The notes under the pieces were generated by a model, which was given only the letters and a program-made list of their open reading frames with translations, searched no databases and was not told the DNA's origin. DNA of 64,000 bases from Cryobacterium psychrophilum. GTDB lineage: Bacteria > Actinomycetota > Actinomycetes > Actinomycetales > Microbacteriaceae. The DNA is taken from positions 3,224,001-3,288,000 of the forward strand of contig NZ_SODI01000001.1 of assembly GCF_004365915.1 (NCBI RefSeq), given 5' to 3'. The position numbers and the translations under genes are program-made. Shown here in pieces: positions 8,734 to 52,954 of the stretch; position 1 is the stretch's first letter; the number at the start of each line of letters is the position of its first letter.

Positions 8734-8774
8734 GTTGCCACCCTAGTTGGGTACTTCCGTCCTAGGCTCGGGTC

Positions 8775-9644
8775 ATGGCCCACCCAGATTTTGCTGCCGG
8801 TCCGGAATTCGATGACCCGGAGGTTGCTCCGCGCAAGGCGGTCCCTCTGGACGCCTACACGCACGGGCACCACGAGAGCGTGCTCCGATCCCATACCTGG
8901 CGCACAGTGGACAATTCGGCGGCCTACCTCGCACCCGAACTGAAACCCGGGATGACGCTGCTCGACGTGGGTTGCGGTCCGGGAACCATCACGGTCGACC
9001 TGGCGCGCCGGGTGTCACCCGGGCGGGTCGTCGGCATCGATGCCTCGGCGCAGATCATCATCTATGCCGAAGGCCTCGCCGTTGATGAGGCGGTGCACAA
9101 CGCCAGCTTTCGGGTGGGGAACGTCTATGCCCTCGATTTCGACGATGCGTCGTTCGACATCGTTCATGCCCATCAGGTTGTGCAGCACCTCTCCGATCCC
9201 GTGGCGGCCATGCGCGAGATCAGACGGGTACTCAAACCCGGTGGTCTCTTCGCCGCCAGGGACGTGGACTATGGGGGCGTCGCTATCTATCCCGCGCTCC
9301 CGGGACTCGAAAAATGGATGGAAACCTATCGGGACGTGCATTTCTGGAACGGTGGAGACCCGGACGCGGGCCGCGCGCTCAAGGCGTGGGCGCGACGGGC
9401 CGGGTTCGCCAGTGTGGCCGCGAGCGCGTCCATCTGGTGTTTTGCTACGGATGCCGAACGAGAGTGGTGGGGGGAATCGTGGGCTGTTCGCGCCACGGAA
9501 TCGTCGTTCGCAGCACACGCCATCGAATCCGGTGTCGCCGACTTGGCGGAGCTGCGTGACATTGCGGCGGCGTGGCGCACGTGGGTTCACGATCCTGACG
9601 GCTGGTTCGCCATGCCGCACGGCGAAATACTCGCACGAACGTAG
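8775..9644 (+). CDS. Class I SAM-dependent methyltransferase
   Basis: 289 residues. The SAM-binding motif LDVGCGPGT begins at residue 63, an acidic ribose-binding residue is in VVGIDAS, and VQHLSDP plus the REIRRVLKPGGLFAARD strand complete the fold. It resembles the UbiE/COQ5 and Methyltransf_11/25 group, which methylates small molecules. The substrate is unknown. It stands alone; the next genes run on the other strand. Confidence 0.88.
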   Translation: MAHPDFAAGPEFDDPEVAPRKAVPLDAYTHGHHESVLRSHTWRTVDNSAAYLAPELKPGMTLLDVGCGPGTITVDLARRVSPGRVVGIDASAQIIIYAEGLAVDEAVHNASFRVGNVYALDFDDASFDIVHAHQVVQHLSDPVAAMREIRRVLKPGGLFAARDVDYGGVAIYPALPGLEKWMETYRDVHFWNGGDPDAGRALKAWARRAGFASVAASASIWCFATDAEREWWGESWAVRATESSFAAHAIESGVADLAELRDIAAAWRTWVHDPDGWFAMPHGEILART

Positions 9645-10089: not shown

Positions 10090-10536
10090 CTAGACCGTGA
10101 TCTCGTAGGTGACCCAGTCGGTGCGAGTGCCGACCTGGTCGTACAGAATCTGAGCGGTCGCGTTATCGGCCGCCGTGATCAAACGGATGCGGGCCAGACC
10201 CTTGTCCTTCGCGTGCTGCTTCACGAAATCCATGATGGCTCGCCCCGTGCCGGCACCGCGGGCGTCGGGCGTCACAAAGAGGTCGTCCAGGCACAGGCCC
10301 ATGGTGGCGCTCAGGGTTTGCGGCACGGCACGGAAATGCGCGAGCCCCACGTAGGTGCCGTCATCGTCGATCGCGACGGCGCCGGTCAGGGGATGATTCT
10401 TATCAATGATCCAGCTCCACACCTGCAGAGCCTTCCCATCGGTGAGTTCGCTCCCGTAAAACTCGCTGTAGCCCTCGAACAGGCCCAGCCACGAAAAGAA
10501 ATCCTTGTCGCCCAGCGGGCGTACCTGTACTGACAT
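10090..10536 (-). CDS. GNAT family N-acetyltransferase
   Basis: 148 residues. The acetyl-CoA-binding motif A appears as LDDLFVTPDARGAGTGRAIM, with the R/Q-x-x-G-x-G/A loop in RGAGTG, and YDQVGTRTDWVTYEI closes the fold. The N-terminal MSVQVRPL beta strand is typical of GNAT proteins. It follows valS after 9 bases and precedes the 88-residue gene after 3, so the three are probably co-transcribed. The acceptor (protein, amino acid or polyamine) cannot be inferred. Confidence 0.88.
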   Translation of the reverse strand: MSVQVRPLGDKDFFSWLGLFEGYSEFYGSELTDGKALQVWSWIIDKNHPLTGAVAIDDDGTYVGLAHFRAVPQTLSATMGLCLDDLFVTPDARGAGTGRAIMDFVKQHAKDKGLARIRLITAADNATAQILYDQVGTRTDWVTYEITV

Positions 10537-10545
10537 CCGGTGCTC

Positions 10546-13143
10546 CTAACTTTCCAACACGGTGGCGAACACAATGTCGGTCACGGCTAATTCGCTGCCC
10601 TCGACAAAAATCAGTTCATCGATCCGACCCACTGCCTTGAGATCAGCGGCGGCCAGCGCAAGCAGGCCGACCTCCGGTGTCGTTCCCCTTATTACAGCAG
10701 ATGAAATGTCGGTTTTCGGGGAGGCTTTGGCATCGGTCTTTCCGCGCCGGATGCCGGTGAGGGCTCGGCTGGCCAGATCGAGCAGCGCGATGTTGCCGCG
10801 TGAGGCACCGGCGTCCTCCGAGATGAGCTCGGAAACGATCGGCCAGGGGGCACGGTGAATGGATTCGTCGTTCGTCCATGACCAAGCTTCCTCGGTGGCG
10901 AAAGGCACGAAGGGCGCGAAGAGGCGAAGGAGCGTCGAGAGGGCGGTGCGCAGCGCAGCGACGGCCGAGTCCCTGGCCGCCCCGGGCTCTCCGTAGGCGC
11001 GTTCCTTCACCAGCTCAAGGTAGTCGTCGCAGAACGTCCAGAAGAAGCTCTCGGTCACCTCGAGGGCGCGAGCGTGGTCGTAGTTCTCGAAGGCCTTGGT
11101 GGCCTGGCCTACGACGAGCGCGAGGCCGGCGAGCATGCTCTGGTCCAGCGGCTCTGACACCGGCGCGTCGGTCTTACCCTCGAAGGCGAGGATGAACTTG
11201 CTGGCATTGAGGATCTTGATCGCCAGGCGACGTCCGATCTTGATCTGCGTCGGGTTCTGCGGGTCGAAGGCCGCATCGGTTCCGAGGCGAGACGAGGCCG
11301 CCCAGTAGCGCACGGCGTCCGAGCCGTGCTTCACGAGCATGTCTGCGGGGGTGACGACGTTGCCCTTGGACTTGGACATTTTTTTGCGGTCGGGGTCCAC
11401 GATGAACCCGGACAGTGCCGCGTGCTGCCACGGTGAGGTTCCGTGCTGCTGTTCGGCGCGCAAGAGCGTGCTGAACAGCCAGGTGCGGATGATGTCCTGC
11501 CCCTGCGGGCGCAGCGAGTATGGGAACACCAGCTCGAACAATTCGGGGTCGCGCTCCCAGCCACCGGCCAGCTGCGGGGTGAGGGACGACGTGGCCCACG
11601 TGTCCATCACGTCGACTTCGCCGACGAAGCCGCCGGCCTGCCCGCGCTGGTCCTCCGTGTAACCGGGGGCGGCATCCGAGGTGGGATCGACGGGGAGCAT
11701 ATCGCGGGTCGCAACGACCGGCGCATCGAAGAGGGGGTTGGCGTCGGCGTCGAGGGGATACCAGACCGGGAGGGGAACGCCGAAGAAGCGCTGGCGTGAG
11801 ATAAGCCAGTCCCCGGTCAGTCCATTGACCCAGTTCTCGTAGCGGACCTTCATGAATTCCGGGTGCCACTGCAGGTCGGATCCATGCTTGAGCAGGCGGG
11901 CACGCAACGCTTCGTCGCGGGCGCCGTTACGGATGTACCACTGGCGTGTGGATACGATCTCGAGGGGCTTGTCGCCCTTTTCGAAGAACTTGACGGCGTG
12001 CACGATGGGCTTGGGGTCGCCGACGAGCTCACCGCTTTCGCGCAGCAGGGTGACGATGGCGGCCTTGGCGCCGAAGACGGTCTTGCCGGCGAGCTGGGCA
12101 TACGCTGCCACGCCCGTCTCCGAGGTGATCACGTCGGGGGCGTCGGCGATGATGCGGCCGTCGAAGCCCATGATGGCGCGGTTGGGCAGGTCGAGTTCGC
12201 GCCACCAGACCACGTCGGTGACGTCACCGAACGTGCAGATCATCGCGATTCCGCTGCCCTTGTCCTTCTGGGCCAGGTGGTGGGCGAGTACGGGCACCTC
12301 AACGTCGAAGAGGGGCGTGCGAACGGTGGTGCCGAACAGGTGCGCGTAGCGCTCGTCGTCGGGGTGGGCGACGAGGGCGACGCAGGCCGGAAGCAGTTCG
12401 GGGCGGGTGGTCTCGATGTTGATGACCTCGCCGCCAGGCTGGTGGAAGGATACGCGGTGGTATGAGGCCGGCTGGTCCTTGTCTTCGAGTTCTGCCTGGG
12501 CGACGGCGGTGCGGAACGTGACGTCCCACAGGGTGGGCGCCATGGCCTGGTAGGCCTCACCGCGCTCAACGTTGCCGAGGAAAGCGAGCTGCGAGGTGAA
12601 CAGTGCCTCGTGGCCGATCGTGCGATAGGTCTGGTTCCAATCGACGCTCAGCCCGAGGGTGCGCCACAGCTCTTCGAACTGCTTCTCGTCCTCCTTGGTC
12701 AGCACCTCGCACAGCTCAATGAAGTTGCGGCGGCCGATCGGCAGTTGGTCGGCGGCCTTGATGCTCTTGCCATCGCCGCCCTCAAACGGCGGTACGAGAT
12801 TGTCGACATAGGGGAGCGACGGGTCGCAACGCACGCCGTAGTAGTTCTGCACCCGGCGTTCGGTGGGGAGACCGTTGTCATCCCAACCCATCGGGTAGAA
12901 CACGTTCTTGCCGCGCATGCGCTGGAAACGGGCAACGACGTCCGTGTGCGTGTACGAGAACACGTGGCCGATGTGCAACGATCCGGAGGCGGTGGGCGGG
13001 GGAGTGTCGATCGAGTAGATCGACTCCCTGGTCGCGATCTCGCGGTCGAAACGGTAGGTGCCAGAGGCGTCCCACCTGCTCTCCCACTTGGCTTCGAGGC
13101 CTTCGAGGGCGGGCTTCTCGGGGACGCGGTCGACGTGGTTCAT
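10546..13143 (-). CDS. valS: Valyl-tRNA synthetase
   Basis: 865 residues from ATG 13143 with GGAGAG upstream; the frame stays open for 43 more codons but without homology-like sequence. Class I signatures are HIGH at 57-60 and KMSKS at 588-592. The WYIRNG and MDTWATSSLTPQ segments fit ValRS. It charges tRNA-Val and edits Thr misactivation through the CP1 domain. The length and lack of a clear long C-terminal coiled coil match the shorter actinobacterial form. First gene of an operon with an acetyltransferase and a small protein. Confidence 0.97.
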   Translation of the reverse strand: MNHVDRVPEKPALEGLEAKWESRWDASGTYRFDREIATRESIYSIDTPPPTASGSLHIGHVFSYTHTDVVARFQRMRGKNVFYPMGWDDNGLPTERRVQNYYGVRCDPSLPYVDNLVPPFEGGDGKSIKAADQLPIGRRNFIELCEVLTKEDEKQFEELWRTLGLSVDWNQTYRTIGHEALFTSQLAFLGNVERGEAYQAMAPTLWDVTFRTAVAQAELEDKDQPASYHRVSFHQPGGEVINIETTRPELLPACVALVAHPDDERYAHLFGTTVRTPLFDVEVPVLAHHLAQKDKGSGIAMICTFGDVTDVVWWRELDLPNRAIMGFDGRIIADAPDVITSETGVAAYAQLAGKTVFGAKAAIVTLLRESGELVGDPKPIVHAVKFFEKGDKPLEIVSTRQWYIRNGARDEALRARLLKHGSDLQWHPEFMKVRYENWVNGLTGDWLISRQRFFGVPLPVWYPLDADANPLFDAPVVATRDMLPVDPTSDAAPGYTEDQRGQAGGFVGEVDVMDTWATSSLTPQLAGGWERDPELFELVFPYSLRPQGQDIIRTWLFSTLLRAEQQHGTSPWQHAALSGFIVDPDRKKMSKSKGNVVTPADMLVKHGSDAVRYWAASSRLGTDAAFDPQNPTQIKIGRRLAIKILNASKFILAFEGKTDAPVSEPLDQSMLAGLALVVGQATKAFENYDHARALEVTESFFWTFCDDYLELVKERAYGEPGAARDSAVAALRTALSTLLRLFAPFVPFATEEAWSWTNDESIHRAPWPIVSELISEDAGASRGNIALLDLASRALTGIRRGKTDAKASPKTDISSAVIRGTTPEVGLLALAAADLKAVGRIDELIFVEGSELAVTDIVFATVLES

Positions 13144-38797: not shown

Positions 38798-41017
38798 ATG
38801 GAAACCTGGCCCGGAACCGCCTATCCGCTCGGTGCAACTTTTGACGGCAGCGGCACAAACTTCGCAGTGTTCAGCGAGGCAGCCACACGCGTTGAACTGT
38901 GCCTCTTTGACGACGACGGCGTAGAAACCCGAGTCGAGACGCGCGTTGAGATTCTCGAGTCGTCCGCCTTCATCTGGCACTGCTATCTTCCCCTGGTGCA
39001 GCCGGGCCAGCTCTACGGATATCGGGTGTACGGCGACGGAGACTCCACCGCGGGTAATCGCGCCAATCCCAACAAGCTCCTGCTCGACCCCTACGCCAAG
39101 GCGACGTACGGCGCCATCGACTGGGACGAGTCGCTGTTCTCGTACCACTTCGGCGAGCCCGATTCGCGTAACGACGCCGATTCGGCGCCGCACATGATGC
39201 TCGGTGTGGTCGTGAACCCGTTCTTCGACTGGGCGGGGGACCGTCCGCTGCGCACGCCCTACAGCGAGACGCTCATCTATGAAGCGCACGTGAAGGGCCT
39301 CACTCAGTTGCAGGAGGCCGTGCCGGAGTCCCAGCGGGGCACCTACGCGGGCCTTGCGCATCCGTCAGTCATCGACCACCTGCAGAAGCTGGGTGTCACC
39401 GCCGTCGAGCTCATGCCGGTGCACCAGTTCGTGAACGACAGCACCCTGATGGAGAAGGGCCTCAACAACTACTGGGGCTACAACACCATCGGCTTCTTCG
39501 CCCCGCACAACACGTATTCCTCCACCGGCGATCTCGGGCAGCAGGTGCAGGAGTTCAAGGGCATGGTGCGCAGCCTGCACGCCGCCGGCATCGAGGTCAT
39601 TCTCGACGTGGTCTACAACCACACCGCAGAGGGAAACCACCTCGGGCCGACGCTCTCGTTCAAGGGCATCGACAATGAGGCCTACTACCGGCTCATGGAT
39701 GACGACAAGCGTTACTACATGGACTACACCGGCACCGGCAACACGCTCAACGTGCGCCACCCGCACGTGCTGCAGCTCATCATGGACTCGCTGCGCTACT
39801 GGGCGATTGAAATGCACGTCGACGGCTTTCGCTTCGACCTCGCCTCGGCTCTGGCGCGTGACCTGTACGACGTCGACAAACTGTCGACCTTCTTCGAACT
39901 GGTACAGCAGGATCCGATCGTGTCGCAGGTGAAGCTCATCGCTGAACCGTGGGACGTGGGTCCCGGCGGGTACCAGGTGGGAAATTTCCCGTCGCAGTGG
40001 TCGGAGTGGAACGGCAAATATCGCGATACCGTGCGGGACTTCTGGCGCGGCGAGCCGTCGACCCTCGGCGACTTTGGGAGCCGCATCGCCGGCTCGTCCG
40101 ACCTGTACGAACACTCCGGGCGCCGCCCCGTCGCGTCGGTGAACTTCGTCACCGCCCACGACGGCTTCACACTTTCCGACCTCGTCTCCTATAACGAAAA
40201 GCACAACGAGGCCAACGGCGAAGACAACAAAGACGGCGAATCCCACAACCGCTCGTGGAACTCCGGGGAGGAGGGGCCAACGAGCGATCCCGCCATTCGC
40301 GCGTTGCGAGCCAGGCAACACCGCAACTACCTCGCCACGCTTCTGCTCTCACAGGGCGTGCCGATGCTGCTGCACGGAGACGAGCTCGGACGCACGCAGA
40401 ACGGCAACAACAACACCTACGCCCAGGACTCAGAGATCTCCTGGCTGCACTGGGACGATGCCGACCAACCGCTGATCGAATTCACGGCCGCCATCTCGCG
40501 CCTGCGCCGAGACCACCCCACGTTTCGGCGCAGTCGCTTCTTCGACAGCAGTTCCGGAAAACGCGCGGAGGGCGAACCCCTGCCCGACATCGTGTGGCTA
40601 GCCGCCGACGGCGAGGAGATGGAGTCGGCGGACTGGGACGCGACGGACACGCGTTTCGTCGCCAAATTCCTCAACGGAGACGGGATCCGAGAACGCGACT
40701 CTCGCGGGGTCGAAATCACCGACGTGAACTTCATCCTCTGCTTCAACGCCGGTGCCGAAGACGTGGACTTCACCCTCCCCGACGAGGAATACGGGGCCGA
40801 GTGGGAGATCGTCGTTGACACGGCGGGTGAGGGCGCCGATCGGCTTCCGCGGTCGGCAGGGGCGATCCAGACGATCGTGTCCCGGTCCATGGTGGTGTTG
40901 CGGGCCTACGCTGCGCCTCTCGCTGCTCCCGATCACTCCGTGGCGGCGTCCCTGGCCGGACTCACCGGCACGATCACACTCCCTGGACCGGCCTCGCGCC
41001 TACACAGGGCTGTCTGA
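38798..41017 (+). CDS. glgX: Glycogen debranching enzyme GlgX (isoamylase type)
   Basis: 739 residues from ATG 38798 with GAGGAG upstream. An N-terminal CBM48 domain (GTNFAVFSEAATRVELCLFD) precedes the GH13 barrel. The nucleophile is Asp347 in DGFRFDLAS and the acid/base Glu383 in IAEPWDVGPGGYQVG; VNFVTAHDGFTLSDLVSYN carries the third Asp. It removes alpha-1,6 branches from glycogen to give linear maltodextrins, the substrate of TreY. It overlaps treY by one base (TGATG), so the three genes form one operon. Confidence 0.95.
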   Translation: METWPGTAYPLGATFDGSGTNFAVFSEAATRVELCLFDDDGVETRVETRVEILESSAFIWHCYLPLVQPGQLYGYRVYGDGDSTAGNRANPNKLLLDPYAKATYGAIDWDESLFSYHFGEPDSRNDADSAPHMMLGVVVNPFFDWAGDRPLRTPYSETLIYEAHVKGLTQLQEAVPESQRGTYAGLAHPSVIDHLQKLGVTAVELMPVHQFVNDSTLMEKGLNNYWGYNTIGFFAPHNTYSSTGDLGQQVQEFKGMVRSLHAAGIEVILDVVYNHTAEGNHLGPTLSFKGIDNEAYYRLMDDDKRYYMDYTGTGNTLNVRHPHVLQLIMDSLRYWAIEMHVDGFRFDLASALARDLYDVDKLSTFFELVQQDPIVSQVKLIAEPWDVGPGGYQVGNFPSQWSEWNGKYRDTVRDFWRGEPSTLGDFGSRIAGSSDLYEHSGRRPVASVNFVTAHDGFTLSDLVSYNEKHNEANGEDNKDGESHNRSWNSGEEGPTSDPAIRALRARQHRNYLATLLLSQGVPMLLHGDELGRTQNGNNNTYAQDSEISWLHWDDADQPLIEFTAAISRLRRDHPTFRRSRFFDSSSGKRAEGEPLPDIVWLAADGEEMESADWDATDTRFVAKFLNGDGIRERDSRGVEITDVNFILCFNAGAEDVDFTLPDEEYGAEWEIVVDTAGEGADRLPRSAGAIQTIVSRSMVVLRAYAAPLAAPDHSVAASLAGLTGTITLPGPASRLHRAV

Positions 41018-43326
41018 TGCGGGTGCCGGTCTCCACCTATCGCTTGCAGATTCGTGAAGCATTCGACCTGGATGCTGCGGTGGGGGTTCTCGACTATGTC
41101 TCCCGCCTCGGCGCAGACTGGTTGTACCTGTCTCCGCTGCTTGCGGCCGAGGCCGGCTCCGATCACGGTTACGACGTGATCGATCATTCTCGAATCGACC
41201 CGGTGCGCGGGGGAGCGGCCGGCCTCGACCGGCTCGCCGCCGCGAGCGCAGCAGCCGGTCGCGGCCTGCTCGTGGACATCGTGCCCAACCACATGGGCGT
41301 GGCCACCCCGGCCCAGAACCTGTGGTGGTGGGACCTGCTGCGAAACGGCGAGGCTTCACGCTATGCCGAGGCCTTCGACGTGGACTGGGAGATCGGCAAC
41401 GGCAAGATCCGGATCCCGGTGCTCGGCGATGCGCCCGATGAGCTGGACCAGCTCCGGATTGTCGGGGACGAGCTGCACTACTGGGACAACCGTTTGCCCC
41501 TTGCCCCTGGCAGCGCCGAGGACGGCGCATCCGTTGCCACCATCTACGGCCGGCAGCACTACGAACTCATGAACTGGCGGCGGGCCGATTCCGAGCTGAA
41601 CTATCGGCGCTTCTTCGCGGTGAACACCCTCGCCGGGTTGCGCGTTGAGGTTCCGTGGGTGTTTGACGAGTCGCACGCAGAAGTTGTGCGCTGGGTGCGT
41701 GAGGGACTCGTGCAGGGTCTGCGGGTTGACCACCCCGACGGCCTCGCCGACCCGGGCGGATACCTCGACCGGCTGCGAGAGGCGACGGACGACGCGTACG
41801 TGCTCGTTGAGAAGATTCTCGAGGGGCCGGAACAGCTTCCGACAAACTGGTCCACCGCCGGAACCTCGGGCTACGACGCCCTGGCCGACTTCGACCGTGT
41901 GCTCGTCGACCCCCACGGAGAGGCACCGTTCGACACGCTGGAAGCCCGGCTGCACGGCCACGCGGTCTCGTGGACCGACCTCGTGCTCGCCAACAAGCGG
42001 GTGATCGCCGACGGGATGCTGCACTCCGAGGTGCTGCGGCTGACCCGGCTGGCCACCGTTTCGGAGGTCGCCGCCGAGGTGAGCGCTGATGCGATCGCCG
42101 AACTGCTCACCTGCTTCCCGGTCTACCGTTCCTACGTGCCCATCGGTGCCGCGTATGTGCGCGCGGCGGCGCAGGTAGCCGCCGACCGGCGCCCTGAACT
42201 TCGCAGCGAGTTCGACCGGCTGGTGCCGCTTCTGCTCGACCCCGAGCATCCGTTTGCCGTGCGGTTTCAGCAGACGTCCGGCATGGTGATGGCCAAGGGC
42301 GTGGAAGACACGTCGTACTACCGATTCAGCCGCTTGACCTCGCTCAACGAGGTCGGCGCCGACCCGGGGGAGTTCGCCATTACCCGGGATGAATTCCATG
42401 CTCGGCAGCAGCTGCGCCAGGCGGCCCTTCCGGCGTCGATGACGACACTGTCCACCCACGACACGAAACGCGGCGAAGATGTTCGCGCGCGCATCAACGT
42501 GCTCGCCGAGGTCCCGAGCGAATGGGAACACGCCCTCGGCGAGTTCACGGCCGCTGCGCCCCTCGGCGACGCTCCCTTCGAGAACCTGCTCTGGCAGGCC
42601 ATCGTCGGAGCCTGGCCGCTGTCGCCCGAGCGCCTCGGCGCGTATGCCGAGAAGGCGGCGCGGGAGGCCGGCACCTCCACGACCTGGACCGCACCCAACG
42701 AGGCCTTCGAGACGGCCCTGTCGCGTCTCGTCACGGCGACCAACGAAGACGATGCGCTGCGCACCCTGATTGCGGCGTTCACCCTGCGGGTGCGCGCGCC
42801 CGGGTGGAGCAACTCACTCTCCGCGAAGCTGCTGCAGCTCACGGCACCGGGGGTTCCCGACGTGTACCAGGGCAGCGAGCTGTGGGAGACCTCGCTCGTC
42901 GACCCGGACAACCGCCGGGTGGTCGACTTTGACCTGCGCCGCGACTACCTCGCGCGCGTCGACAGCGGATGGCTCCCGCCCGTTGACGAGACCGGTGCCG
43001 CCAAACTGCTGGTCACGACGAGGGCCCTGCGCCTGCGCCGTGACCGACGGGAGCTGTTCACCCGCTACGCACCCGTCACGTCCCTGGGGGCCGGAGCGCA
43101 CCACGTGGTCGCCTTCGATCGTGGTGGCGCGGTCACGGTCGCCACGCGGCTTCCCGTGGCCCTGGAGGCCGCGGGCGGCTGGGGTGAGACGACGATCGTG
43201 CTCGGCACGCGACCGTACGTGAACGTACTCACCGGAGAACGCGTCGCGGGAGGGGTGCTTCGTGTGGCCGATCTGCTCGCCCACTACCCGGTCGCTCTGC
43301 TCGTGGCCGAAGGGACTCACTCATGA
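41017..43326 (+). CDS. treY: Maltooligosyl trehalose synthase
   Basis: 769 residues. It is a GH13 enzyme with an early DIVPNHMGV, nucleophile Asp238 in [13 protein letters not shown], acid/base Glu265 in LVEKILEG and [14 protein letters not shown] near the third Asp, the TreY hallmark. It rearranges the reducing end of maltodextrins to an alpha-1,1 linkage. It overlaps treZ by 4 bases. Confidence 0.96.
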
Positions 43327-45089
43327 TGGATGACCGTTTTGCCGTATGGGCTCCGGCCGCTGCGACCGTGCATCTTGTGCTGGGCGACGCTGCTGGCCAG
43401 ACCGAGCACGAAATGCGGCGCGGCGACGATGCTTGGTGGCGTCCGGCGGTCGGGCTCAGCGCGAGCGCCTCTGCCACTGTCGATTACGGCTTTCGTGTCG
43501 ACGGGCGCGGTCCCTTCGCGGACCCACGGTCCCGCCGTCAACCAGACGGGGTGCACGGGCTCTCGCAGCTGTTCGACACCGACCAGCACGTGTGGGCGGA
43601 CGGCGCGTGGACCGGTCGGCAGCTCGCCGGGAGCATGATCTACGAAATGCACGTGGGCACCTTCACCCCGGAGGGAACTCTCGACGCGGCCATCGCCAGG
43701 CTGCCGCACCTCACGTCGATCGGCGTTGACTTCGTGGAGGTTCTCCCGGTCAACGCCTTCAACGGAACGCACAACTGGGGCTACGACGGCGTGCTCTGGT
43801 ATGCCGTGCACGAGGGCTACGGCGGCCCGGCCGCCTACCAGCGTTTCGTCGACGCCTGCCATCTCGTCAATATCGGGGTGATCCAGGACGTCGTGTACAA
43901 CCACCTCGGCCCGAGCGGAAACTACCTGCCGCAGTACGGTCCGTACCTGAGCGACGCCGCGGGCAACACCTGGGGTGACTCGCTCAACCTCGACGGGCAC
44001 AATTCCGAGCCCGTGCGCCGATACATCATCGACAACGCGCTCATGTGGCTCGGGGACTACCACGTTGACGGTCTTCGGATCGATGCCGTGCATGCTCTGC
44101 GTGACGACCGAGCCATTCACCTGCTCGAGGAACTCGCGGTGGAGGTCGCCGTGTTGAGTGCAGCAGAGGGCCGACCGCTCACCCTGATCGCCGAGTCCGA
44201 CCTCAACGACCCACGCCTCATCACGCCTCGCGAGGCGAACGGCTATGGCCTCGATGCCCAGTGGAGCGACGACTTCCACCACGCCGTGCACGTGGCACTG
44301 ACCCGTGAGACCACGGGCTACTACGCTGATTTCGAACCCCTCAGCGCCCTCGCGAAGGTGCTCACCCAAGGGTTCATGCACGACGGCACCTTCTCAAGCT
44401 TTCGTGATCGCAACCACGGTCGCCGCATCGACACCGAGCACATGCCCACATCGCGGCTCGTCGTCGCGTCCCAGAATCATGACCAGATCGGCAATCGCGC
44501 CATAGGTGACCGCCTCACGGCGCAACTCGATGCCGGTCAGCTTGCCATTGCCGCCGCGCTCACCCTGCTCGGCCCGTACACGCCGATGCTCTTCATGGGC
44601 GAAGAATGGGGCGCGAGCACGCCGTGGCAGTTCTTTACGTCCCACCCCGAACCCGAGCTGGGCGAGGCGACAGCGAAGGGCCGGATCGCGGAATTCGCCC
44701 GCATGGGCTGGGACCCTGCGGTTGTTCCAGACCCACAGGACCCGGCCACCTTCGAGCGGTCCAAGCTCGACTGGGCCGAGATTGACCAGCCGCAGCATGC
44801 GCGCATGCTCACGTTCTATGAGGATCTCGCGGCCCTTCGTCGGTCGAACGCCGACGTGACCGACCCGCGTTTTGCGAGCACCACCGTCGAATATGACGAG
44901 ACGGATGCCTGGCTTCGACTTCGTCGCGGTCAGACCCAGATCGTGGTCAACTTCGCGTCCCACGCGCAGTCCCTCCCGGCGGCGCCCGGCTCGGTGCTGC
45001 TCGCCTTCTCCACCGACGGTCATCCGGTGGTGCGGAGCAACGCCGATTCGATTGTGCTCGCACCCCACGCCGTGGCCGTACTGGGCTGA
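43323..45089 (+). CDS. treZ: Malto-oligosyltrehalose trehalohydrolase
   Basis: 588 residues. An N-terminal CBM48-like sandwich is followed by a GH13 barrel with [12 protein letters not shown], nucleophile Asp254 in [11 protein letters not shown], Glu291 in LIAESDLND and [10 protein letters not shown]. It releases trehalose from the product of TreY. The glgX-treY-treZ set makes trehalose from glycogen and typically serves osmotic, cold or desiccation protection. Confidence 0.96.
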
Positions 45090-45273
45090 CCTTGCCGGCT
45101 GTGTGTGAGGTTTCGCGGTTGAGCCCATGCCGCGGGTGTCGGCCCGGCCTCAACTCGTCAGCCAGGCGCGTGCCCGCCTCAGAATCCAGCTTCGGCCCGG
45201 TGGCGTCGATGCCGCCGACCCATAGATCGTGGATACCTGGCCTCGGGGGTTCCAGATCGCGACGGCCGGTGTG

Positions 45274-45381
45274 TCAGCCGCCGAACGCGACGAGGTGGCG
45301 CTGGGAAGCGTCCAGAAGGTGCTCGTAGACCGCGAGAACATCGGGGGCGGTGACTCCGAATGTAGCGGCGGTGAGATCCAT
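45274..45381 (-). pseudogene. DUF2202 (ferritin-like) protein remnant, C-terminal end only
   Basis: On the minus strand about 35 codons read DLTAATFGVTAPDVLAVYEH and then LLDASQRHLVAFGG before a stop. The phrase VYEHLLDASQRHLVAF matches the last helix of DUF2202 proteins (VYENLLxxSRNHLRAF in relatives). Everything N-terminal to it is missing: upstream of 45381 the sequence is response-regulator DNA on the other strand. I infer a deletion that removed the start of this gene and of its divergent neighbour. The stretch from 45090 to 45273 holds no further gene. Confidence 0.6.
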
Positions 45382-45390
45382 GGGAGGGGG

Positions 45391-45873
45391 AACCTCCCGG
45401 TCATCGTTCTCACCGCGCGCAGCACCACGGAAGACCGCATTCAAGGCCTCGAGCTCGGCGCCGACGACTACGTGACCAAACCTTTCAGCCCCGCCGAGGT
45501 CGTGCTGCGTGTGCAGGCCGTGCTCCACCGTTACAGCGGACTGCCCGCCGCGACCGGCCCCGTGAACTACGGCAACAAGAGACTCCGCATTGACGAGAAC
45601 GCACACAAGGCGTGGCTGGACGGCACGCTGCTCGACCTGACCCCCACCGAGTGGGGCCTCCTGGCCGCCGTGGCAGCAGCCCCGGGTCGGGTGTACTCGC
45701 GCTACGAACTGGTGAACCGGGTTCGCGGCTACGAGTACGCCGGCTACGAGCGCACGATCGGCTCCCATATCAAGAACCTCAGGCGCAAGCTCGGCGCCGA
45801 CGGGGCGGATGTGGTGGAGACCGTGCTCGGAGTCGGCTACCGGCTGGGGCTGCGTCAGGATGATGAGCGATGA
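45391..45873 (+). pseudogene. Response regulator (OmpR/PhoB type) lacking the first half of its receiver domain
   Basis: The homologous part begins abruptly at NLPVIVLTARSTTEDRIQGL. Helix 4 to helix 5 of the receiver (GADDYVTKPFSPAEVVLRVQ) and a full winged-helix DNA-binding domain (LDLTPTEWGLLAAV, RTIGSHIKNLRRKLG, ETVLGVGYRLG) follow. The phosphoacceptor Asp, about 25 residues before this point, and the start codon are gone. A frame open from ATG 45229 covers it only by reading the DUF2202 remnant antisense. The stop overlaps the kinase start (ATGA). Confidence 0.85.
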
Positions 45874-47224
45874 AATCTATCGGTCCCGGCTTGGGGCCCC
45901 TTGGACGACGCCTCCTGCTTGCCTTCGTGCTGGTCGCAATCTCGTCGGTCGTCGTTCTCTCGGGGGCAGCATTGATCGGTGTGGACCGTGGCGTGCAGGT
46001 TGCACAGCAGGACGACCGTGAACGGATCGCGGGCGCTGCTGCTGCTGCCGCCGCCGACGCCAATCAAAACGCAGGCGGCTGGGAGCAGGCCGACCTGAGC
46101 CCGGCTATCGCGATCAGCGATGCGGCATCAGCCCGTATCACCGTTCTGGACGCCAGCGGCACGACGCTCCAGTCCAGTGGTGACGGCAGGGGAAACCCGA
46201 ACGGGCAGGGCGCGGGGCCGGCTGCCGGCACGAGCCAGAACGTTGTCACCACGCCCATCGTCGTCGACGGAACGTCGATCGGAACGGTCCGGATGAATTT
46301 CGGCGCTACCTCCGGAACCAGGGTGCTCGACATCGCATGGTCCTGGATCGCCGTGGCCGCTGCCGCCGCACTCCTTGTGGCGCTCGCCGCGAGTTGGCTG
46401 GTGACACGGCTTCTCGTACGGCCGATCCGCGCGATGACGGATGTGGCACGAGCATTCACGGCCGGTGAACGGCAGACCCGTGTCAGAGGGCGGGGCCCCG
46501 GGGAGCTCGGCGAACTGGCCGTCGCCTTCAACGGTATGGCAGATGCGGTGGTCCGGTCCGATCAGGATCGCCGCAATCTGACGGCTGACGTGGCCCATGA
46601 ACTGCGCACGCCACTGGCAGCGCTGCAGGCCGGGTTGGAGGAGCTACGCGACGCACTGGTGCCACCCACGCCCGAAGGCCTCCCCGCCTGCATGACCAGT
46701 CGCTTCGGCTGGGGCGAGTGGTGGCAGACCTGTCCGAACTATCGGCGGCGGAGACCTCGGGGTTGTCCCTGCAACTGGAATCCGTCGACGTGGCGCAGAT
46801 CTTGCGCGACGAATCGTCACTACGTGAACCTCAGCTCCGGGCGGCGGACGTGAACGTGACCGTTCACACGGGTGGGCCTGCTTACGTGCGGGCGGATGCC
46901 GACCGGTTGCACCAGGCCGTGGGAAACCTGCTGGCCAACGCCGCACGGTACTGCCAGCCGGGGGACAGCGTCACACTCACCGTCTCAGTCGATGACGACC
47001 AGGCGGTGCTCAGGGTCGCCGATAACGGTCCGGGCATCCCACCCGACGAGCTCCCACACATCTTTGACCGGCTGTGGCGGGGGCGTGCAGCTGAGCAGGT
47101 CGCCGGTTCCGGGATTGGCCTGGCCCTGGTTCGTGAAACCGTCAGCAGCCACGGTGGAACCATCGAGGCGACTTCTGTTCCAGGAGAAGGAACCACGATT
47201 ACGATCCGGTTGCCCAGCGCCTAG
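45870..47224 (+). pseudogene. Sensor histidine kinase, frameshifted
   Basis: Two membrane segments, a HAMP linker (LVRPIRAMTDVARAFTAGER) and the phospho-His243 motif HELRTPLAAL read in one frame up to about 46688. The rest (VADLSELSAAETSG, the N box LANAARY, DNGPGIPP and GSGIGLALV) continues to 47224 in another frame. One base is missing within about 46681-46688, in a C-rich stretch. The frame without correction ends at 46853 with nonsense. With the truncated regulator before it, this two-component system is dead unless the frameshift is a sequencing error. Confidence 0.85.
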
Positions 47225-47763
47225 GCGTCGAGGTCGAATCGCACCATGGGAAGGTCGCTGCCACTGTCATCCAAGGCAGTGCCGAGGGTAGCGGTGAGCA
47301 CCGGCTTCAGCGCGGACCAGGCCTTCGGGTGCGCCACTCGATATGCGGTCATCGCAGTTTGTGTTTCGGCCGGGGTGAGCACGTGGGCCGTCGCAGGGGC
47401 TGGCCTCCGGCTTGCGATGAACAGACGGACGTGGGGGTTCGCCTGGACGTTGATGAACCACTGGGAATGTGAACCCAACCCGGACGCGACGATGTAACTG
47501 CCGGGGGCTGCACGGGAAACGACCTCCAGAACCACGTAACGGGCCAGACCGGATTTGCGGCCCGTGTGTTCGAGCATGAGAAGCCGTCGCCCGAACAGGC
47601 CCCCCAACCGTGCCCGATAAACACCGATCGGTGCTCGCATCAACCAGCGCACGCGCAGCAGGCCGGCGACCCATGATGCGATCTTCCCTGACGTCCCTGA
47701 CGTCCCTGACGTCCCTGACGTCCCTGCCGTCCCTGACGGTGACACGTTCGCATCGTCGATCAT
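47221..47763 (-). CDS. Nitroreductase/deazaflavin-dependent oxidoreductase family protein
   Basis: 180 residues from ATG 47763. The core LLMLEHTGRKSGLARYVVLE with SYIVASGLGSHSQWFINVQA is the DDN/PnbA family of small F420- or flavin-dependent reductases. WFINVQANP and the basic RKSG loop match the cofactor phosphate site of this family. The N-terminus has a variable GTSGTSGTSG tract from a 9-bp repeat. The stop shares CTAG with the dead kinase. Substrate and cofactor (F420 or other) are not decided by sequence. Confidence 0.85.
   Translation of the reverse strand: MIDDANVSPSGTAGTSGTSGTSGTSGKIASWVAGLLRVRWLMRAPIGVYRARLGGLFGRRLLMLEHTGRKSGLARYVVLEVVSRAAPGSYIVASGLGSHSQWFINVQANPHVRLFIASRRPAPATAHVLTPAETQTAMTAYRVAHPKAWSALKPVLTATLGTALDDSGSDLPMVRFDLDA
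47685..47738 (-). repeat. 9-bp coding tandem repeat (six copies)
   Basis: Six copies of TCCCTGACG (one with a single change) stand in tandem and encode Gly-Thr-Ser triplets on the minus strand near the N-terminus of the reductase. Confidence 0.9.
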
Positions 47764-47798
47764 CCTTCTGACTGTACTCCGCGCCCGGCTCAGGACTG

Positions 47799-48440
47799 CT
47801 AGCTGCTGGCGCCCGAAGCAATGACACCCACGCCGAGCACGGCCATGATTGCGCTGCTTGCGTGTTCCACGGTGGCGTTGACTTTGGGCCTGCGCAGCCA
47901 TTTCATCGCTTTGGCCGCGATCACGGCGACGACCGCCAGGTAGGCGAAGGCAATAACGGATTCCACCACGCCCAGGATCAGGGCCGTACCCATGGTGTCC
48001 CCGCCATGCGGAATGAACTGCGGCACGATAGCGAGATAGAACAGTCCCACCTTGGGGTTGAGCATCGTGGACAGCGCCCCGGCACTCAGCCCGGCAAGCC
48101 GCGTGTAGAAAAGCGGTGAGGCCTCTCCGGTGCTCGCGAGGGCCTGTTTGGTGGATCTGCGGCTCTTCACGAACGAGGAGATACCCAGGTACAACAGGTA
48201 CAGGCCGCCGGCGATCTTCAGCCACCGAAAGACCTCCGCGGACTGTTCCATGATGGCGGCCAGTCCGAGGCCCACCAACGCCGCCCACACCAAGGACGCT
48301 CCGGCCGAGCCCGCGGCGGCCGCGATGCCGGCGCTTGCGCGGTTCAGGGCGACGCGCAGCACCAGGAAGGTGTCCGGTCCAGGCGTCACCGAGAGCAGGA
48401 GGCACAGCCCTGCGAAAGCGGCGAGCGAGGCGATGGTCAT
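47799..48440 (-). CDS. LysE family amino acid exporter
   Basis: 213 residues from ATG 48440; 11 upstream codons exist in frame but have no homologous look. Six hydrophobic segments, with PGPDTFLVLRVALNRASAGI near the N-terminus and NPKVGLFYLAIVPQF in the middle, are the RhtB/LysE signature. It exports amino acids or homoserine lactone-like molecules; the substrate is unknown. It follows a possible start region near 48500 and is not in an obvious operon. Confidence 0.93.
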   Translation of the reverse strand: MTIASLAAFAGLCLLLSVTPGPDTFLVLRVALNRASAGIAAAAGSAGASLVWAALVGLGLAAIMEQSAEVFRWLKIAGGLYLLYLGISSFVKSRRSTKQALASTGEASPLFYTRLAGLSAGALSTMLNPKVGLFYLAIVPQFIPHGGDTMGTALILGVVESVIAFAYLAVVAVIAAKAMKWLRRPKVNATVEHASSAIMAVLGVGVIASGASS

Positions 48441-48542
48441 ATACACGAGTATCCCGCATCGCGTACCCGCCACACCAGCAGTTCACCGGCTCGCTCGCGT
48501 GAGTGTGCACGCTATCGGCTCGTGTTCTCTGTTCCCCGGTTC

Positions 48543-50021
48543 TTAGAAGGGGGTGTCGGTGGCGTAGGTGAGGGGTTGGGCCCAGTGGTCGATTCGGGGT
48601 TTTTTGACCGGGGGTGGGGTGAGGTCTGGGGGTAGGAGTGGTGGCCGGATTCTGCTGGCGGGGTGGGTGGCGTAGTGTTTGCCGGCGGGGCTGGTCCAGG
48701 TGAGGGTTCCCTGGTCGTTTTGGCTCACGTCCCAGCCGGTTTCGTGCTTGAGTTTGTGCGATCGGCCGCAGAGCGCGGCGAGGTTGCTGAAGGTGGTTTC
48801 ACCGCCGTATTGCCATGCCGTGGTGTGGTCCATGTCGCAGTGCCGGGCGCTTCTGTTGCAGCCGACGAAACGGCAGGTCTCGTCGCGCACCTCCAGGTAG
48901 CGACGGAGGGCTTTGGGCACCCGGTAGGTGTCGCGGCCGAAGGAGAGCATCGCGCCGGTCTCGGGGTGGATGAGGATGCGGTGAAACCCGGTGGCAGTGC
49001 CGGCGAGTCGGCGTGCGGTCTCGGGGTCGATCGGCCCGAATCCTTCGAGCATGGCGGGTTCGTCGCCTTTGCCCATCAGGGTGAGGATGGGGATGGTGAC
49101 GTACACGTTGCCGACGACGCCGGCGCCGAGCCCGGTTTCGGTGACGCCCTTCAGCAGCAGGTCGACGGCCACGTCGCAGCGCAGCTGCGGCAGGGTGCGC
49201 TCCTCACCGGTGACGCGGAGGCTGCGCGCCATCGCTTCGACCCGGTCGTTGATGGCGCTGGCATCATCGTTGGTCAGGGTCATTTCGAGGTACGCCATGC
49301 CGTCACGGGCCGGATGCACCCCGAAACAGCGGTCTTTGACGGCGGTGGTGTGCCGGGCCCGGCTTGTCTCCGGGTGGGAGAGTTCCCGCAGGGTGATGGC
49401 CTTCTTCTTCAGTTGCGGCACCGTGAGGGTCTCGGCGTCGGTGAGCACCTCCGTCTCGTAAGTGTCCATCGCTGAGTCGGGCAACGCTAGGGCGTTGTCG
49501 ATGATGACCTGCGCGTGCCGGTAACTGATGTCCCCGTCCAGCAGCGCCCGGTGTGTGCGCGGCAGGTTGTACTGGAGCAGCTCACTCTCGGTGAGCAGGT
49601 TCCGCGCGGATCCCTCGGGAAGCTTCAGCAGTGCGGCGAGCTCGGCGATGAATCCTTCGTGTGCGGCCGTCGCATCGGACCACTGAAACTCGGTGAGGTC
49701 GTGCGACCCGTTGGGCCGCCCGGACTGCGCGGTGCTCGTTGTCCACCGGTGCGCGTCCGCGATGACGACCGCGCGGGCGGCGTGAGCCATGTTGATCAGC
49801 CGGTCGAACGCGGTAATACTGTCGAGTAGTACGGCCTGGGCGTTGTCGATCACCCGGCGAATGCGCGCAACGTCAGACGGACGAACGTCACCGTTCGTAA
49901 TGGCCAGCATTGGCTTCACCGGGGTCGTCAGGGGTGTCGGGTCGGGTGCAGTTGCGGGTGTGTCGGGCGGGACGGGGCCCGCGGCATCCTCTTCTGGAGG
50001 CACTTCTTCGTTGTTCTCCAT
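48543..50021 (-). CDS. DUF222 / HNH endonuclease domain protein (13E12 family)
   Basis: 492 residues from ATG 50021 (an in-frame TTG at 50033 adds four). The long N-terminal helical DUF222 region is followed by a C-terminal HNH nuclease site: CRFVGCNRSARHCDMDHTTA, then TFSNLAALCGRSHKLKH, with zinc cysteines at each end. The family is common and multi-copy in actinobacteria and is sometimes mobile. A role in DNA cutting is assumed from the fold only. There is no transposase or inverted repeat around it. Confidence 0.92.
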   Translation of the reverse strand: MENNEEVPPEEDAAGPVPPDTPATAPDPTPLTTPVKPMLAITNGDVRPSDVARIRRVIDNAQAVLLDSITAFDRLINMAHAARAVVIADAHRWTTSTAQSGRPNGSHDLTEFQWSDATAAHEGFIAELAALLKLPEGSARNLLTESELLQYNLPRTHRALLDGDISYRHAQVIIDNALALPDSAMDTYETEVLTDAETLTVPQLKKKAITLRELSHPETSRARHTTAVKDRCFGVHPARDGMAYLEMTLTNDDASAINDRVEAMARSLRVTGEERTLPQLRCDVAVDLLLKGVTETGLGAGVVGNVYVTIPILTLMGKGDEPAMLEGFGPIDPETARRLAGTATGFHRILIHPETGAMLSFGRDTYRVPKALRRYLEVRDETCRFVGCNRSARHCDMDHTTAWQYGGETTFSNLAALCGRSHKLKHETGWDVSQNDQGTLTWTSPAGKHYATHPASRIRPPLLPPDLTPPPVKKPRIDHWAQPLTYATDTPF

Positions 50022-50086
50022 AACCCAATTCAAGCAGACACCACCGACATTCCTGATTCCTGCTCAGGTTCGGGAGGACGGCCAGA

Positions 50087-52954
50087 TCAGGAGGGGCGGG
50101 TGAGATCGGCGAGAAGCTCGAGTACGTGGCTGTAGGGCTGCTCGGTGGCGCGGGTCATCCCAAGCTCGCACGTGCGGTTGCAGGAGGCATGCGCCGCGGA
50201 ACCGAACTCCACAACCTCCGCGGCCTGCACCCGCGTGGCCGAGGCGGTCAGCTCGGGATGCAGCATGCCCCGGTCCCCGGCGAAGCCGCAGCATCCCCAG
50301 TTCTCCGGCACATCCACGCGCTCGGCGACTCCGTCCGCGAGCGCACGCAGCGAATCGTTGATGCCCAGCCGCGTCGATGAACACGTGGGGTGCAGGGCCA
50401 GCGACTCGAGCTTTTCGTACGGGGGCAGATGCGGCAGGATGCTGGTGGCTGCGAACTCCACCGCGTCCATCACGCGCAGGGACGGTTCGCTCTCATCGCT
50501 TTCGATGGTGGCCCGCAGGCCCTCGGTGCACGAGGAGGCGTCGCAGATGATCGGCAGGGCGCCATCACGCGTTGCGCGGCGCAGCGCAGCGAGGGTGTTC
50601 GCGCGCATGGTGGCCTGGCCGGCGACGAGGCCCTTCGATGCCCAGGGCGTGCCACAGCACAGACCGTCAATCTCCGGTGGTACCGCCAGGGTGACACCGA
50701 CACGAGCGCAGAGCTGCTCGAAGCTCACCTGTACGCCGGCGGAGTCGGCATCCGCTGGACCGAACATGGTACTCACGCACGCCGGAAAATAGACGGCCTC
50801 GACGACTGCCGCGGCGGGTGGGACGGGGCGCTGCCGGGTGGGACCGCCGGCAGGGAGCTCGGGGGAGTACAGCGGAACGGTGTCCGTGCCGAGCAGCGTG
50901 CGCGCAAGCCGGTTGGGCCCCAGCACGAGCGGCACGGGAACGCGAGCCACCGCCGAGAGGGCCAGGCCCGCTCCACGGGTGACCGTTCCCCAGTTCTTCG
51001 CCGCGGTGTTCCAGACCGCGTCCTGCACGGGCTTCGGCTGCGCCAGGCGCAAGCGTTTCACGAGGCTCCCCGTGTCAATGTTCACCGGGCAGGCCGTCTG
51101 GCACATGCCGTCGACGGCGCAGGTCTCGACGGCGCTGTAGGTGTAGTCCTGTTCAAGCTGGGCGGCCAGGTCGGTGTCGCCATCGAGCTTCGCCTGTTCG
51201 ATGGCCCGCAGTGTGACAATCCGCTGTCGGGGAGTGAGCGTCAGCTCCCGGCTCGGACACACGGGTTCGCAATACCCGCAGGAGACGCAGCGATCCACCT
51301 CTTCTGCCACGGGCGGGGTGCTCTTGATATCGCGCAGGTGCACGTCGGGGTCGTCGTTCATGATCACCCCCGGGTTCAGCATGCCCGTCGGGTCGAAGAG
51401 CGTCTTGAGGGAGCGCATCACGTCATACAGTTCGTCACCGTATTGGCGGCGCACGTAGGGGGCCATGACACGGCCAGTGCCGTGCTCGGCCTTGAGCGAT
51501 CCGCCCTCGCCGAGCACCAGGTCCACCATGTCCTCGGTAAACGCCCGGTAGCGTTCGAGCGATTCCGTACCGGTGAACCCGTCGGTGAGCATGAAGTGGA
51601 TGTTGCCGTCCTTGGCGTGCCCGAAGATCACGCTGTCCTCATACCCGTACTGGTCGAACAGCTCGATCAAGTCGATACAGGTGCGGCCGAGTGCGGGAAC
51701 GGGAACCACCACATCCTCGAGCAGCGCGGTCGTGCCGGTCGGGCGAGCGCCGGCGACGGCCGCGTACAGGCCCTTGCGCAGATGCCAGAGCTCGGCGCGG
51801 GCGGAGGTGTCGGTGCTGAATCGCGCCGGAGAGCTGAGTCCCAGGGTGGGCAACAGGTCGAGCCCGGCGGCGCTGGTCTCCATCAGTCGTTCGGCGCTGT
51901 CGGACTGGAATTCCACCAGAAGCGCCGCGTGGTCTTTCAGTGGGAGGTCGCGAATGATGGCGGGAGTGTCCGGCAGCCCCTGGCCCACCCGCAACGAGCG
52001 GGCGTCCATGAGCTCGAGCGTGGCGGCACCCGCATCCACGAGAGCCGGCAGAGCCGCATTGGAGGCCTCGAGGTCGGGAAACACCAGCAGGCCCGTTGTC
52101 ACGTGGGACTGCACGGGAATGGTGCGGAAGACCGCCTCCGCCACAAATCCGAGAGTCCCCTCGCTGCCCACGATGAGGTGAGCGAGCATATCGACGGGGC
52201 GCTCGAAGTCGAGGAAGGAATTGACCCCGTAGCCCATGGTGTTCTTCATCGAAAACTGGTGCCGAATCGTGGCAACGGATGCCGGATTTGACCGCACTCG
52301 TCGGGCGAGGCGTACCAGTCCCTCGTGGAGCTCCGGTTCGAGGGCGCGGAGGCGCGCGTCGGCATCCGCTTCCCCCGTGTCGATGACCGTACCGCTCGGC
52401 AACACCACGGTGAGGGACTCGAGCGTCTGATACGTGTTGTCGACCGTTCCGCAGGCCATGCCGGAGGAATTGTTGGCGACAACACCGCCAATGGTGCACG
52501 CCGACTCGCTTGCCGGGTCCGGCCCAAATTTGCGACCATACCGGGACAAGCGGGCATTCAGTGCTCGCACGGTCACGCCGGGCTGCACCCGCACCCGAGC
52601 GCCGGAATCGAGAACATCGATGCGCTTGAAGTTGCGGCGCACGTCCACGAGCACTCCGCCGGTCAGTGCCTGGCCGCTCAGGCTCGTGCCGCCGGAGCGG
52701 AACGTGAGCGGTACGCCCTGCGCGGCGCTGGCCTGCAACAACCGGCCCACCTCTGCGGCGTCGGCGGCCACCACCACGGCCTGCGGAATGAGCAGAAAAT
52801 GCGAGGCATCGTGGGCGTTGGCATGCCGGTCAATCGCACGGGTCAGCACCCGGGTCGAGTCCTCAACGGCGCCACGCAGGGCATCGAGAGTGGCCGGGGC
52901 GGCGGCGACATCAGGGGCAAGAGCAGTGGAGCGAGAAATTAGGGCACCATCCAT
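50087..52954 (-). CDS. FAD- and Fe-S-binding D-lactate/glycolate-type dehydrogenase
   Basis: 955 residues from ATG 52954; the in-frame ATG at 53020 would overlap the permease by 82 bases. The N-terminal half is a VAO-type FAD domain (PLTFRSGGTSLSGQALTGG) with its substrate cap. Two 4Fe-4S motifs follow: CVSCGYCEPVCP from about Cys556 and CAVDGMCQTACP. Two CCG domains (GLCCGTPW, NWGCCGFAGDRG) end the chain. It fuses GlcD- and GlcF-like parts and probably passes electrons from D-lactate to quinone. It overlaps the lactate permease gene by 16 bases. Confidence 0.92.
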   Translation of the reverse strand: MDGALISRSTALAPDVAAAPATLDALRGAVEDSTRVLTRAIDRHANAHDASHFLLIPQAVVVAADAAEVGRLLQASAAQGVPLTFRSGGTSLSGQALTGGVLVDVRRNFKRIDVLDSGARVRVQPGVTVRALNARLSRYGRKFGPDPASESACTIGGVVANNSSGMACGTVDNTYQTLESLTVVLPSGTVIDTGEADADARLRALEPELHEGLVRLARRVRSNPASVATIRHQFSMKNTMGYGVNSFLDFERPVDMLAHLIVGSEGTLGFVAEAVFRTIPVQSHVTTGLLVFPDLEASNAALPALVDAGAATLELMDARSLRVGQGLPDTPAIIRDLPLKDHAALLVEFQSDSAERLMETSAAGLDLLPTLGLSSPARFSTDTSARAELWHLRKGLYAAVAGARPTGTTALLEDVVVPVPALGRTCIDLIELFDQYGYEDSVIFGHAKDGNIHFMLTDGFTGTESLERYRAFTEDMVDLVLGEGGSLKAEHGTGRVMAPYVRRQYGDELYDVMRSLKTLFDPTGMLNPGVIMNDDPDVHLRDIKSTPPVAEEVDRCVSCGYCEPVCPSRELTLTPRQRIVTLRAIEQAKLDGDTDLAAQLEQDYTYSAVETCAVDGMCQTACPVNIDTGSLVKRLRLAQPKPVQDAVWNTAAKNWGTVTRGAGLALSAVARVPVPLVLGPNRLARTLLGTDTVPLYSPELPAGGPTRQRPVPPAAAVVEAVYFPACVSTMFGPADADSAGVQVSFEQLCARVGVTLAVPPEIDGLCCGTPWASKGLVAGQATMRANTLAALRRATRDGALPIICDASSCTEGLRATIESDESEPSLRVMDAVEFAATSILPHLPPYEKLESLALHPTCSSTRLGINDSLRALADGVAERVDVPENWGCCGFAGDRGMLHPELTASATRVQAAEVVEFGSAAHASCNRTCELGMTRATEQPYSHVLELLADLTRPS

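Follow-up and report, generated by a model that had tools for sequence, protein, structure and literature searches.

A deletion scar joins the tail of a DUF2202 gene to a beheaded response regulator in Cryobacterium psychrophilum

We analysed a 64,000-nucleotide stretch of Cryobacterium psychrophilum DNA (hereafter the window). The gene order in the region of interest is a plus-strand gene with Pfam alpha-amylase and CBM48 domains (43323-45089), which we take to be treZ; the tail of a DUF2202 gene on the minus strand; the remnant of a response regulator on the plus strand; a broken sensor histidine kinase, also on the plus strand; and a set of minus-strand genes that includes a LysE-type transporter. 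The genome is 3.68 Mb in two contigs and 99.38% complete. It was compared with 56 other Cryobacterium genomes (57 including its own), the set holding one genome of this species. The closest organism-named proteins among the matches listed were from Cryobacterium. For tblastn, the proteins of an intact relative (locus L068) served as queries against a small database of 19 loci and the window.

The minus-strand remnant (45274-45378) consists of the last 34 codons and the stop codon of a DUF2202 gene. Residues 219-252 of the L068 DUF2202 protein matched 45378-45277 of the minus strand with 76% identity over 34 residues (E 2.4e-10; tblastn, 19 loci and window). Collinear DNA in the relatives, this match, and a stop codon (45274) at the place homologous to the relatives' stop together identify the tail as the end of a DUF2202 gene. 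Residues 1-218 are lost, and with them the start, the signal peptide and the bulk of the domain. Pfam did not recognise PF09968 in the 35-aa minus-strand tail alone; the tail covers only the end of the domain and is too short for such a match. The full-length DUF2202 proteins of two relatives that were scanned (P0121 and P0122) scored 103.8 and 108.7 bits against a PF09968 cut-off of 22, with E values of 1.1e-29 and 3.3e-31; the intact DUF2202 protein matched no NCBIfam family. An earlier note, made from the letters alone, had read the minus frame as DUF2202. Similarity to the protein ends of relatives was confirmed by tblastn, but recognition by Pfam was not obtained, and the identity assigned here is one by alignment to relatives whose product is PF09968.

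The plus-strand remnant (45373-45873) was identified by tblastn and Pfam as an OmpR-type response regulator that runs from residue 64 to the end. Residues 64-226 of the L068 regulator align to 45373-45861 with 93% identity. The Response_reg profile was matched only at positions 64-110 of 111 and the receiver is incomplete, whereas the C-terminal winged-helix DNA-binding domain Trans_reg_C is complete (positions 3-77 of 77, 71.1 bits). Lost residues 1-63 include the acidic residues of the VEDE motif and the aspartate of LDLGLPD, which are present in all 17 intact regulator copies; the latter is the phosphorylation site in this family. A contig scan with the regulator remnant returned 80 distant regulators at 39-51% identity, whose loci were left out of the analysis.

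The intact counterpart of this locus was found in 13 of the 56 other genomes, at one locus in each (L061-L073). Its order is DUF2202 (minus), 132-164 bp, response regulator (plus) and histidine kinase (plus), the spacer being measured between the points that match the two start codons of L068, and each gene of these modules was a single tblastn piece. Sixteen of the other genomes have a regulator closely homologous to that of the window (82-94% identity), amounting to 17 complete copies, and genome G003 holds an additional regulator fragment. DUF2202, counted as PF09968 above the cut-off, is present in 14 of the 57 genomes, 13 of which carry this regulator and module; the fourteenth is G027, discussed below. 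Three of the 14 profile alignments cross one stop codon; they reach profile position 137-140, past the usual 134-135, and we therefore read them as ordinary gene ends. For the intact regulator and kinase, NCBIfam returned rows below the cut-off alone.

The neighbourhood of the regulator is not uniform. In 4 of the 17 complete copies (L074-L077) the divergent neighbour is a different secreted-type protein (family F11; regulator-forward positions 8180, 8437, 9076 and 8782, respectively) and not DUF2202. The one that was scanned, in L075, has methionine/glycine repeats and sulfocyanin/copper-binding matches. This alternative neighbour hints at metal or redox stress as the signal sensed by the system.

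Comparison with the 13 intact loci revealed what is missing from the window. Between the points matching 45378 and 45391 the intact loci hold 927-1020 bp and the window 12, a net loss of 915-1008 bp that removed the 5' part of DUF2202, the divergent promoter region and the 5' part of the regulator. At a threshold of E <= 1e-6, blastn found the right arm at all 13 loci and the left arm at 11, the left arms of L069 and L072 being located by local alignment only; the left arm of L073 was lengthened by 20 bases without alignment. The lost segment thus lies between two homologous arms of copies that are intact and collinear at 13 loci, which is the pattern of a pseudogene formed by deletion. That the two remnants stand head to head with nothing between them was borne out by tblastn with the L068 proteins, and the proposal in the earlier note of a deletion across a divergent promoter agrees with the additional 915-1008 bp in the relatives.

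The join was placed at 45372-45379 by column counts against the 13 left and 13 right arms. T at 45372 matches all left arms and 1/13 right arms, while C at 45379 and A at 45380 match all right arms and, respectively, 1/13 and 0/13 left arms. The intervening GAGATC (45373-45378) is assignable to either arm. The two homologies therefore meet within 45373-45378, and the limits proposed previously, 45381 for the tail and 45391 for the regulator, were off by a few to some eighteen bases.

GAGATC is found exactly in 9/13 right arms and in 2/13 left arms (L063 and L066). Within a single relative, the two arms have 6-7 consecutive bases in common at the homologous point in one case of 13, 5 bases in four, and 0-2 bases in eight, so the micro-repeat is not a strong element of the explanation; random nearby pairs share at least 6 bases in 0-0.55% of cases. 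It is plausible, though not proven, that the break lies at a short direct repeat, and it may have arisen there, near GAGATC, by slippage or end-joining. It had been suggested instead that the inverted repeat GGGAGG-GGGAA-CCTCCC helped the event. This repeat does exist (45382-45398) and starts four bases right of the micro-repeat. It is not at the breakpoint itself, however, but right of the join and inside the regulator codons, and none of the 17 relatives has it at the corresponding position. Inverted repeats of 6 bp with a loop of 3-8 number 212 in the 64 kb window, or 3.3 per kb, which is at chance level. On these grounds we rejected the inverted-repeat mechanism and consider it hardly credible; the direct micro-repeat is a better candidate, if a weak one.

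The time of the break was judged from the state of the remnant. It is 93.3% identical in protein and 83.8% identical in DNA to the regulator of G048. Long-term decay was tested by counting changes at columns invariant in the other 17 copies, and was not seen: the sole such change is D193G, in the DNA-binding domain, and the intact copies have 0-4 each. With 93% identity to the nearest intact copy and one invariant-column departure, the break looks recent. A recent break on this lineage is a simpler reading than a remnant kept from drifting, although so little decay would also be expected under continued selection.

The kinase is also damaged, by a frameshift (46682-46688) that the earlier note had missed. 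Its first part (45870-46853), with HAMP and the start of HisKA by Pfam, ends out of frame, and the rest, with HATPase_c, lies in another frame (46688-47224; tblastn residues 274-450, 82%; ORF 46718-47224). With the kinase of the intact relative as the tblastn query, homology follows one frame to 46682 (residue 271) and another from 46688 (residue 274), and HAMP, HisKA and HATPase_c do not share one open frame in the window. Nearly all other kinase matches listed are full-length, mostly 440-500 aa. The kinase departs from otherwise invariant columns at 7 places, one of them the frame-break gap; the other 17 copies depart at 0-11 each, with L078 left out and several of their departures being alignment ends. 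A separate frame break was observed in the kinase of L074 (genome G008), at about 10435-10439, where two tblastn pieces meet at residues 257-258; a 293-aa C. breve database protein perhaps represents this break.

We then considered the open frame that spans the join. Starting at 45229 with GTG, not with ATG as stated in the earlier note, it is open for 214 codons to 45873 on the plus strand, and its first 48 codons are the antisense reading of the DUF2202 remnant and of the sequence flanking it on the 3' side. A protein search with this composite scored 8000 candidates and gave 5131 matches, of which the best 120 were listed. Among these 120, only P0001, a protein identical to the window's own, matches the composite over its initial 48 residues. 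This entry is 205 aa long, with 100% identity to the composite and 2 member sequences, and its contig measures 348,319 bp; besides it, three rows were listed for the first 48 residues, with E values of 2.0, 9.2 and 9.2. Matches covering 96-97% of the composite might be taken for full-length homologues. This was rejected, as among those listed P0001 alone agrees with the start of the composite, and in P0007, the one examined, an intact receiver N-terminus is aligned with gaps to unlike residues. The frame from 45229 is a by-product of the deletion and not an inherited gene, as the earlier note had also held in denying that it is a real regulator.

Could the composite nevertheless work as a shortened regulator, with half a receiver beside its DNA-binding domain, expressed from treZ upstream and independent of phosphorylation? 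The 214 open codons share their strand with the treZ-like gene that ends at 45089, the DNA-binding domain is complete by Pfam, and the remnant has decayed little, all of which would suit such a protein. Read-through from treZ into the composite is possible. Neither a promoter-like nor a terminator-like site was detected in 45000-45450. The lack of a terminator would favour read-through and that of a promoter would speak against expression, but with 0.2 terminator-like and 0.0 promoter-like sites expected by chance, the latter in a scan for the sigma-70 consensus only, this silence says little either way. Against a working regulator stand the first 48 residues, which have no independent match among the best 120 listed, the unique change D193G at a column of the DNA-binding domain invariant in 17 relatives, and the frameshifted partner kinase. 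We regard this reading as very improbable.

An assembly or sequencing artefact, in which the missing kilobase was misassembled and the kinase frameshift is a base-calling error, is another rival reading. One genome of the species was searched, and a single frameshift is a common type of error. However, the join is clean and collinear with the relatives; the composite protein has an entry from a contig of different size; and the broken 327-aa kinase frame occurs in identical form on two contigs, of which the longer (3,565,758 bp) has the length of the window's own contig. The second contig is possibly not independent, since contigs sharing this state may stem from a single isolate assembled more than once, and this limits the preferred reading too, as the frameshift might be a sequencing error. 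A PF09968 profile search of the genome gave no match at E <= 10, and with 99.38% of the genome present the missing part of DUF2202 has not simply been placed elsewhere. We regard an artefact as very improbable as well.

Similar losses were observed in two other genomes. L078 is the second module copy in G003. Measured against L069, about 1.84 kb is deleted there, which took DUF2202 and roughly 137 codons of the regulator, its receiver included, and the kinase has lost an internal segment; the decayed stretch covers about 8536-9393 as fetched. In L079 (G027), about 2.4 kb net is gone relative to L071, a loss that comprises roughly the first 89 codons of DUF2202, the promoter region, and both the regulator and kinase genes, with the decayed stretch at about 10255-10732 in regulator-forward orientation. 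The breakpoints differ, and we take the losses in the window, L078 and L079 as separate events. That one promoter was crossed by three distinct deletions in a set of 57 genomes suggests that the module is dispensable in some lineages. The promoter might possibly be a deletion hot spot, for which three events are too few. A broader proposal is that the locus represents either a new gene born by deletion, joining 48 antisense residues to half a receiver and an entire DNA-binding domain, expressed by read-through from treZ and independent of phosphorylation, or such a hot spot in Cryobacterium; we think it very unlikely that this would hold.

In this genome the module occupies a position unlike that in the relatives, as judged from DNA and protein matches that are limited to the module. 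Between 41000-52000 of the window and the 19 stretches retrieved, matches of more than 50 bases were confined to 45237-47256, except for 48858-49021 in L074, and the regulator and kinase were the only protein families of the window that recurred. The flanking treZ-like and LysE-type genes had no match near the relatives' modules within the fetched stretches. The segment between treZ and the DUF2202 3' flank (45090-45236) had short, chance-like matches only in the genus set. Short matches of about 45193-45220 and 45300-45336 in several genomes, seemingly collinear, belong to one gene, presumably release-factor-2-like, with their order reversed, and were taken to be due to chance. Surroundings of the module vary among L061-L073 and L079: by reading of their ORFs, some adjoin rhodanese-, thioredoxin-, flavoprotein- and sulfite-exporter-like genes, and those of L064 and L066 adjoin ferric-reductase- and flavin-transferase-like genes. 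A search for the flavin-transferase family in the C. psychrophilum genome gave two matches, both at 1.44 Mb.

Taken together, the sequence comparisons indicate with high confidence that a deletion fused the tail of DUF2202 to the back half of the regulator, in a course of ordinary gene decay that yielded a recent pseudogene cluster. The ancestor would have carried a DUF2202 ferritin-like gene divergent from the regulator and kinase, with a short intergenic promoter region between them, and one deletion of ~0.92-1.01 kb would have taken both 5' parts and everything between. A single deletion is the simplest reading and is indistinguishable from two nested ones. Since the promoter region and the phospho-accepting half are gone, the two-component system presumably cannot work as such; with the kinase frameshifted in addition, we regard the module as a recently formed pseudogene cluster. 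The deletion scar is real, and its formation is that of an ordinary pseudogene.

The finding guards against wrong annotation. The database entry P0001 carries both response-regulator Pfam domains although its phosphorylation site is missing and it begins with residues encoded antisense, which illustrates how a product of this type can pass for a normal regulator in annotation. The comparisons further show a DUF2202 gene and one specific two-component system co-occurring, and decaying jointly, in Cryobacterium. This offers a clue to the function of DUF2202, on which no paper was found under DUF2202 or PF09968 in the library searched.

Among known systems, a parallel is RecA-independent deletion between short direct repeats in bacteria (PMC5426353). 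The deletion in the window would be alike in the loss of the DNA that lay between short direct repeats, and differs in that its repeat is of at most 6-8 bases and is deduced from relatives only. L078 resembles the window in its beheaded regulator, its deleted DUF2202 and promoter region and its broken kinase, although its deletion is a different and larger one that reaches regulator codon about 137. The closest known system is the intact Cryobacterium module of DUF2202, OmpR-type response regulator and BaeS-like histidine kinase (L068, L071 and L067), where BaeS-like denotes resemblance only, the NCBIfam scores being below the curated cut-offs. The window shares with it the genes, their strands and their order, whereas the divergent promoter region, both 5' ends and the unbroken kinase are features of the intact module alone.
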